This document shows positions 1 to 13,805 of a DNA stretch of 32,842 nucleotides, piece by piece. The stretch's first letter is position 1. Each line of letters begins with the position of its first letter. Made by a program: the position numbers and the translations under genes. Origin of the DNA: Bathymodiolus heckerae thiotrophic gill symbiont. Lineage in GTDB: Bacteria; Pseudomonadota; Gammaproteobacteria; PS1; Pseudothioglobaceae. Location: assembly GCF_900128515.1 (NCBI RefSeq), contig NZ_FQTP01000010.1, forward strand, positions 1 through 32,842, read 5' to 3'. Under the pieces are notes generated by a model, which was not told where the DNA came from, did not search any database, and saw nothing but the letters and a program-made list of their open reading frames with translations.

Positions 1-330
1 CAAAGGATTATCAAGGGTAAAATTAGTATTGAAAGCGTCATTCATTCTGATGGTTGGCGAGGGTATAATGGTTTAGTAGATTTTGGCTATAAGAAGCATT
101 TTAGAGTACATCATAGCAAGAATGAATTTGCTCGTGGTAATGCACATATTAACGGCATAGAATCATTTTGGGGTTATGCCAAAACAAGGCTGGTAAAATT
201 TAAAGGAATGAATAAAAATATGTTTAATTTACACTTGAAAGAATGTGAATTTAGATTCAATAATCGCAAGCAAAATCTTTATAAGATTTTGCTTGAAATG
301 TTCAGAAAAGAGTCGCTTAAGTTGTCATGA
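1..330 (+). CDS. IS1595-family transposase, C-terminal part (5' end outside window)
   Basis: Frame 1 is open from base 1 to a TGA at 328-330, giving 109 residues with no start in the window. The visible part has HSDGWRGY, which carries one catalytic Asp. About 27 residues later come ARGNAHINGIESFWGYAK and a conserved LVKFKGM stretch. These are typical of the ISXO2-like DDE transposase core that cuts and joins element ends. The C-terminus FNNRKQNLYKILLEM fits the family's usual ending. Nothing in the visible part is broken, so the gene may be intact upstream. It converges with the minus-strand operon, and its last 50 or so bases overlap, in antisense, the tail of the truncated VTT/DedA gene. 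Confidence 0.8.
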   Translation, partial: QRIIKGKISIESVIHSDGWRGYNGLVDFGYKKHFRVHHSKNEFARGNAHINGIESFWGYAKTRLVKFKGMNKNMFNLHLKECEFRFNNRKQNLYKILLEMFRKESLKLS

Positions 331-333
331 CCC
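1..333 (+). mobile_element. 3' end of an IS1595-type insertion sequence
   Basis: The window opens inside a transposase gene whose product looks like the ISXO2/IS1595 DDE family. Only the 3' part of the element is visible. Its outer end is probably just after the transposase stop, at the bases TCATGACCC around 325-333. This is a guess, because the other end and the target duplication lie outside the window. The element abuts and truncates the last gene of the minus-strand operon that starts at 4647. Confidence 0.7.
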
Positions 334-650
334 AAATTTAATTTATGTGCAAAGTTATAAATAATAAAACAATAGCCGACAATAGCAATTTGAATAGCAA
401 AAAATACTTGAGCAAAAGAAAAAATATAAATACCTGCCAGTAAAAAAGCAGTGCCCGGCAATAGCGTCAACCCTCTGAGTATTAAAATCAAAATATAAAC
501 AATGTAGGAGGTTAAAAAATATTCGGTGTTTATCAGTGTTTTAAGCATTTTTGGCTCAATTTTATAATCGCTAAAATACAAATAAAGCACGGCAATAATG
601 TTGAACGCGATAAAGCCATAAAATAAATACTTCTTGCTAATATTTTTCAT
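279..650 (-). pseudogene. Truncated VTT/DedA-like membrane protein, cut by the IS element
   Basis: The 123-residue frame starts at an ATG that overlaps the end of the upstream ATP-grasp gene by 14 bases. Two or three hydrophobic segments are visible: about residues 10-26, 48-66 and 68-98. The motif LRGLTLLPGTAFLLAG resembles the conserved start of the VTT (DedA/SNARE-associated) domain, a family of roughly 190-230 residues with flippase-like roles. After about residue 106 the frame crosses into the antisense strand of the IS1595 element (from about base 333), so the last 17 or so residues are not native. The distal half of the domain is missing. I infer an IS insertion that removed the 3' end of this gene and anything after it. 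The family call is by eye and moderate. Confidence 0.6.
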
Positions 651-1542
651 TATCAGTAATTTCTAATTGCTCTAGTTTGTTATAAAAAACGTTCAAATTT
701 TTGGGTTTTTCGCCATATCTAGGGTTGTCATGCATTTTTAAGAATGGACGCGAATTGACTTCTAAAAAAATACATTGCTGTGCATCAAAATCAACTTCAA
801 TACCTTGTTTACAAATCACATCAATACCTAAAATATTGGCATTAAAAAAATTAAGTACTTTAATTAAATCTTGCTTATTGTTATCAGTAAGTGTATCTTT
901 ATCCACTATTTCAATACTTGAGCCGAGTTTAAGGGAAATTTTATGATGTAAATAAACCCTTTGCTTGTCTGTAGGAATTGTAAAAAAATCCATGTTTTGT
1001 TGTTTTAGATGTTTTTTAATGGCTCGATTTTTGGGTATCAAATGAGTAATTGGCATAAGTTGCATTTTTTTTCTTAGGGCGTTTTCCACATTAATCAAGG
1101 TATCAATCGTTTGTACACCATCCCCTACTACAAAAGGTGGGTAACGCCTAAGTATTGACATAATGCCAAATTTTGTCATCACTACACGGTAATTTTTACC
1201 CAACAAGTATTGTTCTATAATACTTGTTGGCCACCATTTTTTAACCCCAATACCAGCTTTTAATAATTGCACTTTATTTTCAATAGGGAAATATGCACCT
1301 CGAGAAAAACCACCAACATTAGGTTTGATGACTAGTGGAAAACCATATTTATCAGAAAACTTGAATGCTGAATAGAGCCCAATAAAAGTCTTGCCTTTGG
1401 CATAAGGCAAGATATTTTTCTCAAAAGCATCTCTCGCCTGTGCTTTTGAACGACAAGCACGGCGGACTTCTAGCGGATTGTAATCACTACAACCGGATAA
1501 AAAAAAACGCGATAAAAACCAGTGGATTAATTTTGTTGCCAT
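637..1542 (-). CDS. ATP-grasp ligase, cyanophycin-synthetase-like core
   Basis: This 301-residue protein has the layout of an ATP-grasp amide ligase. VIKPNVGG at 71-78 is the nucleotide-binding Lys/Gly loop. IIEQYLLGKNYRV at 108-120 matches the 'EExIxGxdyRv' strand, and GDGVQTI at 140-146 is typical of cyanophycin synthetase and GshF-type domains. GID at 239-241 and EVNSRPFLKMH at 261-271 supply the Mg-binding Glu/Asn. Such enzymes activate a carboxylate as acyl-phosphate and join it to an amine. The protein lacks the N-terminal domain and the Mur-ligase domain of CphA. The gene overlaps the preceding ATP-grasp gene by 16 bases and the truncated VTT gene by 14, so translation is probably coupled. 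The substrate is unknown. Its position after dioxygenase and decarboxylase genes suggests a sulfur amino acid or sulfinate amine. Confidence 0.75.
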   Translation of the reverse strand: MATKLIHWFLSRFFLSGCSDYNPLEVRRACRSKAQARDAFEKNILPYAKGKTFIGLYSAFKFSDKYGFPLVIKPNVGGFSRGAYFPIENKVQLLKAGIGVKKWWPTSIIEQYLLGKNYRVVMTKFGIMSILRRYPPFVVGDGVQTIDTLINVENALRKKMQLMPITHLIPKNRAIKKHLKQQNMDFFTIPTDKQRVYLHHKISLKLGSSIEIVDKDTLTDNNKQDLIKVLNFFNANILGIDVICKQGIEVDFDAQQCIFLEVNSRPFLKMHDNPRYGEKPKNLNVFYNKLEQLEITDNEKY

Positions 1543-2348
1543 TTTGTTTGATAATGTTTAACAATTTTTTTAACAAAAACAAAGCGATTAAAAATCGATT
1601 TTGGCGTTGTGTTACTCACTCTCACCAAATGATACATATTCGTCTTGATAAATTGATGTTTTTGTTGTTTAGTTAGTCTCTTATCGAGTAAATTAATCGG
1701 AAATGGTGCAAACAAATTTACCTCGATAATGTGGAAATCACCATTCACCAAATCAGACTTAGAATTTGCATGTAAACCTACTCGTGCAATACGAAAATTG
1801 GGTAATTCTTGTAGGTGTATTCGAATTTTTTTTAACTCATCTGCAGTGAAAATTTTAGTGCAATCTTCGTATGTTACATCAGTGTTATTGATGCTATTAA
1901 TTGGGTAGCGTTCATCCGAATGGTTAATCGAGCGTGTAATGGTTAATTCAATCAAGCATTGTACATTATCAGCATCACGAATGTAGAAAATTTCATATTC
2001 TTTTAGTTCACTTGCCGCTTGTTGCACAATATAGGGCGGGTTATTTTGTCCATCATCAAATGCTAAAAATGCTTCTTTTGAATCAATTCTAATAATACCA
2101 TTTGAGTTTTGCCCCCATTCAGGTTTTAAAAAAACGGGGTATATTTTTGGTGGCTTATTTTTGTCAAAGAATGCTTGTTGTAAGCGCCACCTAGTTGGAA
2201 TGTATTTATCTATATCGATTTTTGAATAAAAGCCCTTTTCCTTGTTGTACCACTCAGCATTGATTTGGAAATAATACCAAGGGGGGATTCGAAGGCGTAT
2301 TGACCAAGCAATATAGTAAAAAATTAATTTAAAAGTCAAAAACTTCAC
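1527..2348 (-). CDS. Second, divergent ATP-grasp-like protein
   Basis: The 273-residue product has a membrane-friendly or amphipathic N-terminus (residues 4-20), then a core resembling ATP-grasp. FLKPEWGQNSNGI at 73-85 is the Lys/Gly nucleotide loop. IVQQAASELKEYEIFYI at 107-123 corresponds to the adenine-binding strand with its Glu and the following strand. ARVGLHANS at 188-196 precedes IIEVNLFAPFP at 207-217, where Glu and Asn would hold Mg. It is clearly different in sequence from the ATP-grasp gene that follows. The start shown is a GTG inside the dioxygenase gene (20-base overlap); no ATG lies near it. The function is presumably carboxylate-amine ligation, or modification of the same product. 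Confidence 0.6.
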   Translation of the reverse strand: MKFLTFKLIFYYIAWSIRLRIPPWYYFQINAEWYNKEKGFYSKIDIDKYIPTRWRLQQAFFDKNKPPKIYPVFLKPEWGQNSNGIIRIDSKEAFLAFDDGQNNPPYIVQQAASELKEYEIFYIRDADNVQCLIELTITRSINHSDERYPINSINNTDVTYEDCTKIFTADELKKIRIHLQELPNFRIARVGLHANSKSDLVNGDFHIIEVNLFAPFPINLLDKRLTKQQKHQFIKTNMYHLVRVSNTTPKSIFNRFVFVKKIVKHYQTKWQQN

Positions 2349-2814
2349 CTTTGCTTGGATTGTCTGAATAAAAGTGCAGGCTTAAACTTTTTTCTTTTGC
2401 GCTTATTTGATGAATATAGTTATCCATCTTACCTTTAATGCCTTTATTATATTGGTATTCACCCTGATTAAGTATCGTGCTTTGACGCGCAATAAGCGGA
2501 TTTTTATCAAAAATTTTACAACTCAACTGACCACTAATTAAATACACAAAAGCAAAATCTGGATGCCCATGAATACATGTTGTTGCATTTTTATCCCAAT
2601 TTAACAAACCCAACCAATATTGTTTATTATCAACAATAATACTTTTTGTATAGCTTTGCTCGGAAAATGGTAGTACTAAAGCACTCACTTCTAAAGTTTG
2701 TATCTTCTCAACAGTCAAATTGTAGTTTTCAGCGGCAAGCAATTCACACAAATTTTCAAAATCAAAATCTGTTGAATGTTTGTAATTATAATTTTGAATT
2801 TCTTTTAGTGGCAT
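2329..2814 (-). CDS. Cysteine-dioxygenase-like cupin
   Basis: The 161-residue protein fits the size and fold of type I cysteine dioxygenase-like thiol dioxygenases, which add O2 to a thiol to give a sulfinate. IHGHPDF (His82, His84) and YIHQIS (His135) are the expected three-His iron ligands. SLHFYSDNP (His147, Tyr149) matches the conserved SLHLYSPP strand. By eye, YTK at 55-57 sits where true cysteine dioxygenases have Tyr-x-Arg, the Arg that binds the substrate carboxylate, so Lys replaces Arg. Phe occupies the position of the mammalian cross-linking Cys. The substrate may therefore not be free cysteine. The start overlaps the decarboxylase stop by 10 bases. In context it would act just before or after the PLP decarboxylase. 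Confidence 0.75.
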   Translation of the reverse strand: MPLKEIQNYNYKHSTDFDFENLCELLAAENYNLTVEKIQTLEVSALVLPFSEQSYTKSIIVDNKQYWLGLLNWDKNATTCIHGHPDFAFVYLISGQLSCKIFDKNPLIARQSTILNQGEYQYNKGIKGKMDNYIHQISAKEKSLSLHFYSDNPSKGEVFDF

Positions 2815-4187
2815 TCTATTTCTCGTCCTATGGTTATTAAACGTTCAAATAGATTGCTTAGTTTCATCTTGTCTAAATTAATATTACTAATTAACAATCG
2901 AAATACCAATTTATCACCTATATAAGCAAGTGATAGTAAAGCTATTTGCTCTTGGTGTAGTTTATCACGCAAACACTGATTAAGGTTATTTTGATTATTG
3001 TGATTGCTTTTGAAACGAAAACATAGATTAAAAGAACTGCACTTCACTACCATTTCTAAATACTTAGATTGCTCAATAAAACTTTGTGCAAATTCAGCTA
3101 AGGCGTAGTAACGCTCAACCCTATCAGAAAAACCTTGTTTTGTATAAAATTTCCAATCCAAAAACCACTTTAAACTATCAACACGCCTCCCACATTGCAG
3201 AGAATTGGCGCCGAGGTCAATATCATTGTCTCTAAAAATATAACTACTATCTCCATCTGCACAAGTGCAGGATAATAAGTGCTGATAATTTAACAGTAAA
3301 AAATTACACATTAAATTACTGCCCAGCATTTTATGAAAATCCATCGTAAAAGAATCAAGCTGATTTAAACCACTCAAATACTTGTCTTTTAATTTATCAT
3401 TCATAATGACTGCCCCGCCCCAAGCACCATCACCATGTAGCCAAAAATGATATTTCTTTTTAAGTTTTAAAAGTTTTTCAATATCATCATATGCACCTCG
3501 CACTGTTGTGCCTAAAGTTGCGCAAACAAAAAAACAAAGTCCGCCATTATCCTGCACCCATTTAATTTTTTCAGCCAATATTTCTGTATCCATTTTGCCA
3601 TTGTCAAGGGTTGGAATTTTGATTAGACAATCCGTGCCAATACCTAAAATATTAGCCGCTTTATCCAGTGAATAATGTGCATCCTGACTAACAAAAGCAA
3701 ACAAACGCTTTTGATTGAACAAACCCGTTTGTTTAACTGTTGTTAATGTTTGGTTACGTGCCACCATCATCGCAATCATATTGGCATTTGATGAACCGGT
3801 AGTCATTTGCCCTTCGCCTTGTTTGAAGTCTACAATTTCAAGCATTTGCTCAATCATGTATTTTTCCATTAGTGTGGCAACTGGAGCCGATTCAAAAGTA
3901 CAACCCGAAGTGTTACTAAATGCGGTAACAATTTCACCGACGATTGAGGGTGCATTTGAACCAGACCACATGCGATTAATAAAGTTAGGATGTGCAGTAT
4001 TGGGTGAATAATCTAAATATTGCTTTACCCAAATAAATATTTCATTCCATTGCTGTGGATCAATATTTTTATCTAAATCTAATATTGCCTTTAACTCATC
4101 AGCTGATTGATAATTAACAAGCTTATTGTTTTTTTTAAGGTTTGATTCTGTTAGAATTTGTAGTGTTTCTTTTAAAACATTATGCAT
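2805..4187 (-). CDS. PLP-dependent group II decarboxylase (cysteine-sulfinate/glutamate decarboxylase-like)
   Basis: This 460-residue enzyme belongs to the fold-type I amino-acid decarboxylases. HPNFINRM (66-73) matches the HPxFxNQL segment of cysteine-sulfinate and glutamate decarboxylases. TGSSNAN (130-136) binds the PLP phosphate. HYS (His171) stacks on the cofactor, ATLGTT (223-228) follows, and HGDGAWGG (251-258) carries the pyridine-binding Asp253. FHKML holds the Schiff-base Lys286. These features favour a catalytically complete enzyme. Paired with the dioxygenase-like gene it suggests conversion of cysteine sulfinate, or a related acid, to hypotaurine or a similar amine. Aspartate or glutamate decarboxylation cannot be ruled out from sequence alone. 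The start overlaps the DoxX-like gene by 8 bases. Confidence 0.85.
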   Translation of the reverse strand: MHNVLKETLQILTESNLKKNNKLVNYQSADELKAILDLDKNIDPQQWNEIFIWVKQYLDYSPNTAHPNFINRMWSGSNAPSIVGEIVTAFSNTSGCTFESAPVATLMEKYMIEQMLEIVDFKQGEGQMTTGSSNANMIAMMVARNQTLTTVKQTGLFNQKRLFAFVSQDAHYSLDKAANILGIGTDCLIKIPTLDNGKMDTEILAEKIKWVQDNGGLCFFVCATLGTTVRGAYDDIEKLLKLKKKYHFWLHGDGAWGGAVIMNDKLKDKYLSGLNQLDSFTMDFHKMLGSNLMCNFLLLNYQHLLSCTCADGDSSYIFRDNDIDLGANSLQCGRRVDSLKWFLDWKFYTKQGFSDRVERYYALAEFAQSFIEQSKYLEMVVKCSSFNLCFRFKSNHNNQNNLNQCLRDKLHQEQIALLSLAYIGDKLVFRLLISNINLDKMKLSNLFERLITIGREIECH

Positions 4188-4647
4188 TGCGTTTTTTATT
4201 CAAAAACACCATCAATACGCCCAAAATAAGAATGGACAACGCACTATTTGCTAAACCTGAATCAGTTTGAATTTGCCCATTTTCGCTCCATTCTACCACC
4301 CAACCAAGCGGGGTAAATAAATGAAAAAATACCGCGCCACTCATTACTACAGTTGCCATAAAGCCACCAATATAATGCAATTTTTCTCTTTGTTGCCACA
4401 AAATAATAGGAAGAAGCAAAACTAGAGCAGTTAATAATTCAAAACCACCTACAACATAAGCGCCATATTGACTAAACAACCCGCCAATTGTGTCACCCAA
4501 AAAACTGCTCATCCACGTACCCAAAGTGAAAAAAATATGCAAAGGCTCTGCTGCACCATTAAATTTATAGGGCAATGAACTTAAAAAAACATAGGATATC
4601 CATACAGAAATTAACCAACTCAGTACTATTTTTATAGTTTTATTCAT
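4180..4647 (-). CDS. DoxX-like integral membrane protein
   Basis: The 155-residue protein has four hydrophobic segments, at about residues 7-25, 60-82, 92-112 and 132-150. GGFELLTALVLLLP in the second segment is the part that most resembles DoxX-type small membrane proteins, which often sit beside redox or sulfur enzymes. It starts the six-gene operon, and its stop overlaps the decarboxylase start. Only a weak ribosome-binding site precedes the ATG. Its job is unknown; a redox partner or membrane anchor for the pathway is possible. Confidence 0.5.
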   Translation of the reverse strand: MNKTIKIVLSWLISVWISYVFLSSLPYKFNGAAEPLHIFFTLGTWMSSFLGDTIGGLFSQYGAYVVGGFELLTALVLLLPIILWQQREKLHYIGGFMATVVMSGAVFFHLFTPLGWVVEWSENGQIQTDSGLANSALSILILGVLMVFLNKKRNA

Positions 4648-4713: not shown

Positions 4714-5781
4714 TCATATTCTATCTAAAACTTTACCAGAATCCAATACACTCCTTACTATCTCAGGTGCATCTGTCAAATTAGAAACTTTTTGCGTATG
4801 CCATAAAATCAAACTTGCTGCTAAAACCAAGCCATCATAAAACATGCCTTTTTCACCTGCAAGTGCCGCCTTACCTAGTGTTACTGTATGCTCTGCCAGT
4901 TTTTTAATATCACTTTCAACATTTAAGTCTTTAGGAAATGCAATCGCACGTAATTCTTGCTCAATACCAAGTGCTTTAGGGTCAATATCTACTCTACCCT
5001 GTTCTTTAATACCTTTATAAGACACCATCAGCCCTTTTTGTCGCAAAGATGGAATCACCCCTCCTTCTACGCCACGAACCAATAAAGCACTATCCATACC
5101 AGAGGCATTCACCAAGTGCGCATAAATTGGTGGGTAAGGTTTGTGTACATAGCCCAAAATAGAATGTGTAGTTTTACCACGCAATGGCCCAATTAACGTT
5201 TCTACGGTGTTAATCACTGTGCGTTTAATTAAGCGATTACGCAATGATACCAAATCGTGTAAACCAGGGCAGTAACTGGCTTGATCAATATAACTCCAGC
5301 CAATCATTGGATTTTCCAATCGATTTTTTGCCTCTGCCGTAGAATGACTTACGTTTAAACCCAATGCTTGATTAATATGCCTATGCGTAAGTCCAAATTT
5401 CGGTGACACACTATCAAGCCCGTGAATAACCGTTGGCAAACCTAATTCTGCTAATAATGGAGGTAGAAAAGAGGAAACGGGGATTGAGCGATTATAACCA
5501 CTATATGGATCACCCAAATCCACCAATTCATCCACATTCACTATTTGTTTATCACTCTGGGCAAGAATACCTGCCAAAATACCTTCATTTTCTTCCATGG
5601 TTTCGCGCTTCATGCGCAAAGCAATCAAAAAGATGGCTGACTGCACCTCATCAATTTCACCACGTAAAATTGCCTGCATACCCTCTCTGGCTTCTTCAAA
5701 GGCAATGTCTTTACTCAAATCAGGGCCTGTTGCCACACGTTGAATAATAAATTTCATTAATGCTTGAGAATCTGTACTCAT
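4714..5781 (-). CDS. TrpD-like (anthranilate phosphoribosyltransferase family) paralogue
   Basis: The 355-residue protein has the all-helical N-terminal domain of the glycosyltransferase family 3, with LRGEIDEVQSAIFLIALRMK near residues 37-56. A C-terminal alpha/beta domain follows. The glycine-rich PRPP loop of true TrpD (GTGGDG) is replaced by LGDPYSGYN near residue 88, and the 'KHGNR' motif by VIHGLDS. It is therefore more like the YbiB/TrpD2 group, whose members do not make phosphoribosyl-anthranilate and have been reported to bind nucleic acid. It begins 2 bases after the stop of a Rieske ferredoxin gene, a pairing that suggests co-expression. The function is unknown. Confidence 0.7.
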   Translation of the reverse strand: MSTDSQALMKFIIQRVATGPDLSKDIAFEEAREGMQAILRGEIDEVQSAIFLIALRMKRETMEENEGILAGILAQSDKQIVNVDELVDLGDPYSGYNRSIPVSSFLPPLLAELGLPTVIHGLDSVSPKFGLTHRHINQALGLNVSHSTAEAKNRLENPMIGWSYIDQASYCPGLHDLVSLRNRLIKRTVINTVETLIGPLRGKTTHSILGYVHKPYPPIYAHLVNASGMDSALLVRGVEGGVIPSLRQKGLMVSYKGIKEQGRVDIDPKALGIEQELRAIAFPKDLNVESDIKKLAEHTVTLGKAALAGEKGMFYDGLVLAASLILWHTQKVSNLTDAPEIVRSVLDSGKVLDRI

Positions 5782-12104: not shown

Positions 12105-13805
12105 CTATTTAACAATTAACAATAATAAAAACACGAAATTAGAAGTAAAAGACAAAGCCAGCCAAAATCTATAGTTACTCAATTTTGACTCAGGTTGTTT
12201 AATTTTTTGAATGCTTAAGAACTTAGGGTTTGGATGCTCTAAATCATATAAAAATTCACTCAAAACTTCGTACCGATCTGTAACATCCAAACTACAAGCT
12301 TTCCTGATAGCGCCATCAATCCAAACAGGTAAGTTTGGATTGTGCATCAGTGTTGATTCATACTTAAGTTTAGATAGTTTTTTAACGCTTAAATCTTTAT
12401 CTAACTTATCTTGATATACCAAGGTTGAGGCAAATATTTCATAGACAATTGCGCCCAAACTAAACTGATCTGAAGCTTGAGAAACATGCTCATCTAAAAT
12501 TACTTCAGGGGCAGTATATCCTTGTGTACCTTGATTACCCACGGAATTAATAGGGCTAACCAACTCCGAAACACCGGCAATTCTAGCTGAGCCGAAATCA
12601 ATAATTTTAATTTGGCCCAGTTCATCAATCATGATATTTTCAGGCTTAAGATCACAATGGAGCATTTCTTGACGATGAAATGCTCGAACACCTTGAATGA
12701 TTTGCTTGACATAGCTAACCACAATCTCAACGTCTGGATTAGGGTTGTTATCTATCCATTGCCTTAATGTTTGACCCTTAATATATTCCATGGCATATGC
12801 CAGAAATGTTGACTGCTCATCACTATTATGTATTTTTACGACATGTGGGCTTTGTACACGTTGTCCAACCCATTTTTCATACATAAAATGTTTTAAGTAT
12901 TGTGCATCGTCCTCAAAATTAATCGAGGGCGTTTTAAGTGCAACTATCTGACCAGTTGCAATATCTTTGGCTTTATACAATTGCATTTTTGCACTAGAAA
13001 TCAGCATAGACTGCACTTCAAAACCATTGATTTTCATACCTTTGTTAAGGTCAGGTGGTACAGGTCTTTGGGTTAGCTCATCAAATGCTTCATCAAGATT
13101 TTTCTCGGGCAATTGTTGAATGGTTGCAATCACAGCAGTGATATTGTCAATACTGCCGGAATCTAGCGCACGACTGACAATATCATCAGCCTTTACACTT
13201 CGGCTCATGAGTATTTCTAATAACGCATCATCTAAATAATCATGCACACCGTCCGTGGTCATTAAAAATTGATCGCCCTGTTCTAAATCAAAAGTTTGAT
13301 AATCAACATTAATTCTAAGATCAAACCCCATCGCTCTAGAAAGATAAGTTTTTTCTTTATTGAGACTTAGAATATGATCATTAGTTAATTGTGTCAAAAC
13401 TCCAGACCTAAATCTATAAATACGAGAATCGCCAACATGGAATACATGTGCGATATTTGATTTAACAATGATAACACTTAAGGTTGACAACATTGACGAG
13501 ACTTCATCAGATCGGATCGACTGAGAATAAAGCCAATTATTAAGTGCTGAGATAACCTTGGTGGCTGAATGCTCAACGCTCCAAGAATCAGGCGTTGAGT
13601 AATAATCACTTAAGAACCCACTAACACAACAAGAGCTTGCCTCACGGGCTCGCGTACACGCACTGACACCATCAGCAATAACTACCGCTACGCCTTTATA
13701 TTCTAAAGATTTTGTATCTGGCAGATGATAAGCACAAGCGTCTTGATTTTCAGGCTTTGTGCCGGCAATCGTGTGCGAATCAATCGTAACTTTTAATTTC
13801 TTCAT
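12105..13805 (-). CDS. PP2C phosphatase fused to Ser/Thr protein kinase
   Basis: The first 230 or so residues form a PP2C phosphatase with all metal-binding acids in view: IADGVS near 43-48, HVGDSRIYR, MTTDGVHDYL and GSIDNITAV. A Ser/Thr kinase of about 260 residues follows. HCDLKPEN near 382 is the catalytic loop, with Cys in place of Arg in HRD. IDFGSARIAG is the metal loop and YTAPEVILDEH the activation segment. A membrane helix closes the protein at about 545-565. The gene sits between the nitrate transporter and nasA. Fusions of this type are known near nitrate assimilation genes, which suggests phospho-control of uptake or reduction. The target is unknown. Confidence 0.88.
   Translation of the reverse strand: MKKLKVTIDSHTIAGTKPENQDACAYHLPDTKSLEYKGVAVVIADGVSACTRAREASSCCVSGFLSDYYSTPDSWSVEHSATKVISALNNWLYSQSIRSDEVSSMLSTLSVIIVKSNIAHVFHVGDSRIYRFRSGVLTQLTNDHILSLNKEKTYLSRAMGFDLRINVDYQTFDLEQGDQFLMTTDGVHDYLDDALLEILMSRSVKADDIVSRALDSGSIDNITAVIATIQQLPEKNLDEAFDELTQRPVPPDLNKGMKINGFEVQSMLISSAKMQLYKAKDIATGQIVALKTPSINFEDDAQYLKHFMYEKWVGQRVQSPHVVKIHNSDEQSTFLAYAMEYIKGQTLRQWIDNNPNPDVEIVVSYVKQIIQGVRAFHRQEMLHCDLKPENIMIDELGQIKIIDFGSARIAGVSELVSPINSVGNQGTQGYTAPEVILDEHVSQASDQFSLGAIVYEIFASTLVYQDKLDKDLSVKKLSKLKYESTLMHNPNLPVWIDGAIRKACSLDVTDRYEVLSEFLYDLEHPNPKFLSIQKIKQPESKLSNYRFWLALSFTSNFVFLLLLIVK

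Follow-up and report, generated by a model that had tools for sequence, protein, structure and literature searches.

Paired ATP-grasp proteins with an accessory decarboxylase and cysteine dioxygenase in an operon of the Bathymodiolus heckerae thiotrophic gill symbiont

The window analysed here, a stretch of 32,842 nucleotides from the thiotrophic gill symbiont of Bathymodiolus heckerae (contig C10, NZ_FQTP01000010.1, taken from base 1; the assembly GCF_900128515.1 amounts to 1.92 Mb in 258 contigs), carries close to its start a compact operon, in which a pyridoxal-phosphate (PLP)-dependent decarboxylase and a cysteine dioxygenase (CDO) adjoin two ATP-grasp proteins, termed AG1 and AG2. An earlier note, made from the letters of this DNA alone, had described five intact overlapping genes followed by a truncated sixth, and this arrangement is confirmed: six open reading frames lie on the minus strand, with successive overlaps of 8, 10, 20, 16, and 14 bases from the DoxX gene to the VTT gene. 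The features are as follows.

4180..4647, minus strand: DoxX-like membrane protein of 155 aa, at the head of the operon (PF13564 DoxX_2, 2.6e-5, just under the curated cut-off)
2805..4187, minus strand: PLP-dependent group II decarboxylase of 460 aa, one of the accessory pair (PF00282, 5.5e-69)
2329..2814, minus strand: CDO-like cupin, 161 aa, accessory pair (PF05995, 2.7e-4, just under the curated cut-off)
1527..2348, minus strand: AG1, a minimal ATP-grasp protein of 273 aa belonging to the core (structure model with ATP-grasp fold)
637..1542, minus strand: AG2, CphA/GshF-type ATP-grasp ligase, 301 aa, core (NCBIfam cyanophycin synthetase, 1e-36)
279..650, minus strand: VTT-domain membrane protein, 123 aa compared with about 186 aa in relatives, C-terminus lost to an insertion sequence
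1..330, plus strand: 3' end of an IS1595-family transposase gene, which interrupts the VTT gene at the contig end (PF12762, 2.1e-12)

An intact relative of the VTT protein is encoded in locus L025, where PF09335 was matched at 7e-7, below its cut-off. In addition to the cyanophycin synthetase model, AG2 matched the GshF model (5.6e-21), CphA2 in the PDB (7ta5, 6.3e-15) and, by Foldseek, CphA2 again (4.1e-19), and its fold agrees with those of CphA and GshF. The catalytic set of AG2 is complete, with the ATP-binding Lys 73 and the Mg-binding residues Asp 241, Glu 261 and Asn 263 invariant in 50 out of 50 sequences. The protein is not a full cyanophycin synthetase, being a single domain that scores 126 bits against a model cut-off of 850 bits. 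AG1, by comparison, is barely recognisable by sequence, and it was the AlphaFold model (pLDDT 89.2) that revealed a confident ATP-grasp fold, with DDL and synapsin as Foldseek relatives and with ArgX as the nearest structure (VIA Z 13.9), followed by LysX and RimK (13.3). Lys 75, Glu 117, Glu 209 and Asn 211 of AG1 are invariant in 50 sequences, and position 191 is occupied by Gly, Cys, Ser or Ala in all 50. The first of the Mg-binding residues, an Asp, thus seems to be missing from AG1; its position was placed by strand correspondence between the AG1 and AG2 models and not by residue-level superposition. When the profiles of AG1 and AG2 were compared, only a weak match emerged, confined to the ATP-binding segment.

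The distribution of the operon was surveyed from both of its ends. Of 198 genomes in the order to which G585 belongs, 26 gave strong matches to an AG1 profile; such matches were also obtained in 8 of 321 genomes of the class (window included), in one of 297 Desulfobacterota and in two of 398 Pseudomonadota; in plasmids (PLSDB) AG1 had no match. The neighbourhoods of 28 AG1 loci were read, and in 26 of them, gammaproteobacterial in origin, AG1, AG2 and a transporter gene of the major facilitator superfamily (MFS) stand without an adjacent PLP or CDO gene; DoxX precedes AG1 in 21 of these, and a secreted YHS protein is encoded nearby in 23. The remaining two are L152, identical in sequence to L076, with a PLP gene and no CDO gene, and L159, with no readable AG2. 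In a tree of AG1 and AG2, PLP-bearing lineages lie on either side of the midpoint root, itself uncertain, and a single clade (support 0.97) unites 25 gammaproteobacterial loci that lack PLP, such that for these an ancestral PLP pair that was lost is no less likely than one gained repeatedly. In several Gammaproteobacteria the AG1-AG2-MFS operon is adjoined by genes for a DinB-family protein (L145 4374-5770) and a TANGO2-type protein (L137 10563-11888).

The YHS protein goes with AG1 also within the family of the window, here called Thioglobaceae and corresponding to the SUP05 clade (Candidatus Thioglobus, Ruthia, Vesicomyosocius and Bathymodiolus symbionts): an intact match was found in 9 of the 16 AG1-bearing genomes tested and in none of the 11 without AG1 (p 0.003), and a tenth AG1-bearing genome, G060, has a degraded one. 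This secreted protein (L142 6613-7077 and relatives) matched NCBIfam YHS_seleno_dom (NF041384) at 2.4e-46. The family takes its name from members with selenocysteine, but the copies inspected carry Cys in the GGYCA segment.

Viewed from the side of PLP and CDO, the same gene order was encountered in related symbionts, in Desulfobacterota, in SAR324 and in other genomes, and an arrangement that recurs across these groups is not due to chance. CDO matches were present in 20 of the 83 family genomes, that of G060 being a 26-residue remnant. Among the 19 with a near-complete CDO, the PLP, CDO, AG1 and AG2 genes share one fragment in 16; AG1 is on the CDO fragment in all except G054, PLP in all except G051, where the contig ends, and in the third exception, G039, AG2 was not found beside AG1 and both PLP and DoxX are fragmented. 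PLP, CDO and both ligases also occur together in L039, L071 and L079 (Desulfobacterota/Deltaproteobacteria), in L052 (SAR324) and in L078 (Thiolapillus), where an MFS transporter gene follows AG2 in the place of the VTT gene of Thioglobaceae. The PLP gene occurs alone in many Desulfobulbaceae, in the company of CDO and without ligases in L048, a Desulfobulbaceae genome, and beside the ligases without CDO in L033, L036, L076 and L163; in viral contigs no PLP relative was found. A CDO gene beside the ligases was always accompanied by a PLP gene in the loci examined, bar one contig end, as expected if one enzyme feeds the other.

Taken together, AG1, AG2 and a transporter (MFS, or VTT in the family of the window), often with DoxX and the secreted YHS protein, form the conserved core module, to which PLP and CDO are an accessory pair and probably a supply module. 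The heart of the operon is the ATP-grasp pair with its transporter, for which no published description was found.

The family of the accessory dioxygenase consists, as its profile and its active site show, of true cysteine dioxygenases of the Arg type. The family profile matched cysteine dioxygenase type 1 in the PDB at 6.8e-13, compared with 0.09 for 3-mercaptopropionate dioxygenase. The Fe-binding histidines and the equivalents of His 155 and Tyr 157 (His 86/88/140/155, Tyr 157) are kept in the window copy and in 17–20 of 20 aligned members, the exceptions including truncated copies, and the SLHxYS segment is conserved. The equivalent of Arg 60, which binds the substrate carboxylate, is present in 19 of the 20; the window copy alone has Lys 57 in its place (YTK, where the 19 relatives have YTR, YSR or similar). 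Among the 26 genomes whose ligase operon is PLP-free, G1014 alone matched the canonical CDO_I model. This model also misses the divergent CDO of the window and the operon CDOs of G000, G096, G120 and G126, such that a divergent CDO may be present elsewhere in those genomes. In G1014 a decarboxylase with an F/S/Y motif adjoins the CDO gene (L168 2707-4553), on a contig other than that of the DoxX-AG1-AG2-MFS operon, and is likely to form with it a canonical taurine-type pair.

The best PDB relatives of the PLP enzyme are CSAD (3.1e-69), followed by GADL1 and GAD. Agnello et al. 2013 reportedly defined F/S/Y as the substrate-recognition motif of cysteine sulfinate decarboxylase. At these positions, located on alignments with hCSAD and hGAD, the motif is absent, and W/S/C is found in the window copy and in nearly all aligned members; the active-site motif was considered as proof of CSAD function and rejected, being W/S/C and shared with stand-alone copies. 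PanD was found in 2 of 30 Desulfobacterota that carry the PLP gene compared with 79 of 118 genomes of the phylum sample (p 1.6e-9), and in 3 of 37 carriers outside Thioglobaceae, while PanC is present in 44 of all 48. In Desulfobacterota the PLP family therefore looks like a PanD replacement, and the reaction inherited by the enzyme is probably the conversion of aspartate to beta-alanine. Against the NCBIfam PanP model the window protein scored 124 bits (4.2e-36), far under the 606-bit cut-off. In Desulfovibrio vulgaris a PF00282 enzyme is known to serve as aspartate decarboxylase (PMC10102598), and GADL1 accepts both aspartate and cysteine sulfinate (PMC7367687). The window genome itself has PanD, as do 8 of the 11 PLP-bearing Thioglobaceae, one of these PanD matches being a fragment. 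PanD and the PLP gene occur together in 10 of 19 genomes in which CDO adjoins, compared with 1 of 29 in which it does not (p 1e-4), a contrast that stems largely from one clade and not from independent samples; it is nonetheless what would be expected were the CDO-linked copy doing another job. Cysteine sulfinate is a plausible second substrate, and from the PanD pattern, the CDO-linked contrast and the dual range of GADL1 one may picture an enzyme of dual capacity, drawn to hypotaurine by the neighbouring dioxygenase.

Decay of the operon is evident within Thioglobaceae. L161 lacks both PLP and CDO, L162 and L104 keep remnants of them, and L163 keeps PLP only, while all four retain DoxX, AG1, AG2 and VTT. 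AG1 of G050 contains seven in-frame stops. Repeated decay of the operon is attested by L104, L162, L165 and L167, among which there are PLP and CDO remnants, ligases with frameshifts and one copy without AG2.

The interpretation to which we give the most weight, with a probability of roughly 0.4, is that this operon is a variant of a two-module type that makes a small amide or peptide-like metabolite, in which a supply of amine, hypotaurine and/or beta-alanine, feeds an ATP-grasp pair acting as amide ligase, with the product being moved across the membrane. In this scheme CDO would convert cysteine and O2 to cysteine sulfinate, as its profile and active site suggest, and the PLP enzyme would decarboxylate the sulfinate to hypotaurine, aspartate to beta-alanine, or both, such that the candidate amine is H2N-CH2-CH2-SO2− or its isostere H2N-CH2-CH2-COO−. 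By homology with CphA and GshF, AG2 would acylate this amine via an acyl-phosphate; since a sulfinate cannot form an acyl-phosphate, hypotaurine must be the amine acceptor and not the carboxyl donor. AG1 may be a second ligase or a non-canonical partner, and the MFS or VTT protein would move the product across the membrane. Genomes without the supply module might, speculatively, obtain the amine from, e.g., housekeeping PanD or by uptake.

Several observations weigh against this scheme. The link from the amine to the ATP-grasp pair is drawn from adjacency, and the W/S/C motif, shared by operon and stand-alone copies of the PLP enzyme, is that of neither CSAD nor GAD. A distinct clade of operon-type PLP enzymes was sought and rejected, as operon and stand-alone copies interleave in the tree, and the PanD contrast suffers from its dependence on one clade. 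An O2-dependent dioxygenase in genomes of the sulfate-reducer type is hard to explain. Furthermore, the window copy may be partly decayed, with Lys for Arg 60, a broken VTT gene and no YHS match in the genome.

The absence of the cysteine-sulfinate motif, together with the PanD-replacement behaviour, makes beta-alanine an equally serious product, and it can be argued that the PLP enzyme is a plain aspartate 1-decarboxylase, with the ligases making a beta-alanine dipeptide or related amide, much as GADL1 and the ATP-grasp carnosine synthase do in animals, and CDO confined to a side role in cysteine disposal or the response to O2. We regard this as somewhat unlikely. It would account for the PanD pattern, for the interleaving of operon and stand-alone copies, for the four operons with PLP and no CDO, and for the CDO_I match in G1014 alone among the genomes with PLP-free operons, bearing in mind that divergent CDOs may escape that model; yet PanD is already present in most family carriers of the PLP gene, such that a second source of beta-alanine would be redundant, and a dioxygenase making the sulfinate isostere of aspartate directly adjoins the decarboxylase. 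Alternatively, two independent pathways may merely share an operon, CDO and PLP yielding hypotaurine or taurine as an end product (osmolyte or antioxidant) and AG1, AG2 and the transporter an unrelated compound. Taurine synthesis by a bacterial CDO-CSAD pathway was reportedly described by Agnello et al. 2013, and the separability of the modules is documented by the PLP-CDO pair of L048, by the F/S/Y decarboxylase and CDO of G1014 apart from its AG1 operon, and by the 26 ligase loci without PLP and CDO. This explanation, which we hold to be unlikely, has to contend with the overlapping reading frames in the window and with the placement of PLP directly before CDO or AG1, followed by AG1-AG2, in distant lineages of the AG1/AG2 tree, a recurrence that favours functional coupling. 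A defence system was also considered, and PADLOC gave no hit.

The earlier note pictured a hypotaurine-like amine joined to an amino acid or peptide, perhaps to store sulfur or to act as an osmolyte or protectant. In its strong form, with a hypotaurine–amino-acid conjugate of such purpose as the defining product of the operon, this reading is very improbable. It draws on the presence of CDO, a decarboxylase of the CSAD/GADL1/GAD superfamily and the ligases in a single overlapping operon, but the ligase core mostly lacks adjacent PLP and CDO, family operons have lost these genes and retained the ligases, the pair of L048 has no ligases, and the PLP enzyme, with a motif other than that of CSAD, behaves like a PanD replacement. 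The earlier note is thus partly supported. The two ATP-grasp proteins are indeed conserved neighbours of a true Arg-type CDO family and of a PLP enzyme that decarboxylates acidic amino acids, and the gene set recurs, distant lineages included. The supply enzymes were named rightly in outline; what was mistaken for the heart of the operon is its accessory pair.

A bolder version of the two-module scheme would have AG1, AG2 and MFS/VTT make an undescribed family of small amides, with hypotaurine produced on site as the amine in SUP05-type symbionts and some anaerobes, giving novel sulfinate-bearing peptides; this we consider decidedly doubtful. The ligase core recurs in several bacterial groups, and the literature searched joins no such parts: no paper was found linking ATP-grasp, DoxX and the YHS domain, none pairing the YHS domain with DoxX, and, by title and abstract, no such operon in the literature on ATP-grasp and hypotaurine. 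The identity of the product would name a metabolite of chemosynthetic symbioses, for which a taurine-related sulfur chemistry on the part of the animal host is already under discussion. It would also show whether a PanD-replacing decarboxylase was recruited to sulfinate metabolism.

Upstream of DoxX, at 4714-5781 of the window, lies a gene for a TrpD-like protein of glycosyltransferase family 3, and the same holds for the Thioglobaceae loci long enough to include it. Farther away, at 12105-13805, a protein whose translation reads as a PP2C-like phosphatase joined to a protein kinase is flanked by an MFS gene, of the nitrate/nitrite type by eye, and a gene for a molybdopterin oxidoreductase.

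In comparison with known systems, the operon shares with the bacterial CDO-CSAD pathway, as reportedly described by Agnello et al. 2013, an Arg-type CDO adjoining a PLP group II decarboxylase, but here the motif is W/S/C instead of F/S/Y, the decarboxylase belongs to a family that appears to replace PanD, and the operon further contains membrane proteins and the ATP-grasp pair. With PanP of Vibrio fischeri and DVU0867 of Desulfovibrio vulgaris the PLP enzyme has in common that it is a PF00282 protein and, in Desulfobacterota, that its genomes are largely PanD-less but PanC-positive; in the family of the window it mostly occurs alongside PanD and next to a dioxygenase. AG2 is homologous to CphA and GshF across the ATP-grasp domain, with complete catalytic residues, yet it is a stand-alone protein of about 300 aa and not a domain of a much longer one, and it is paired with a second ATP-grasp protein. 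Finally, animal GADL1 and carnosine synthase offer a possible parallel by role: there, too, an ATP-grasp ligase receives a small amino compound from a decarboxylase of acidic amino acids, although in carnosine beta-alanine is the carboxyl donor, and the bacterial operon adds a dioxygenase and transporters.

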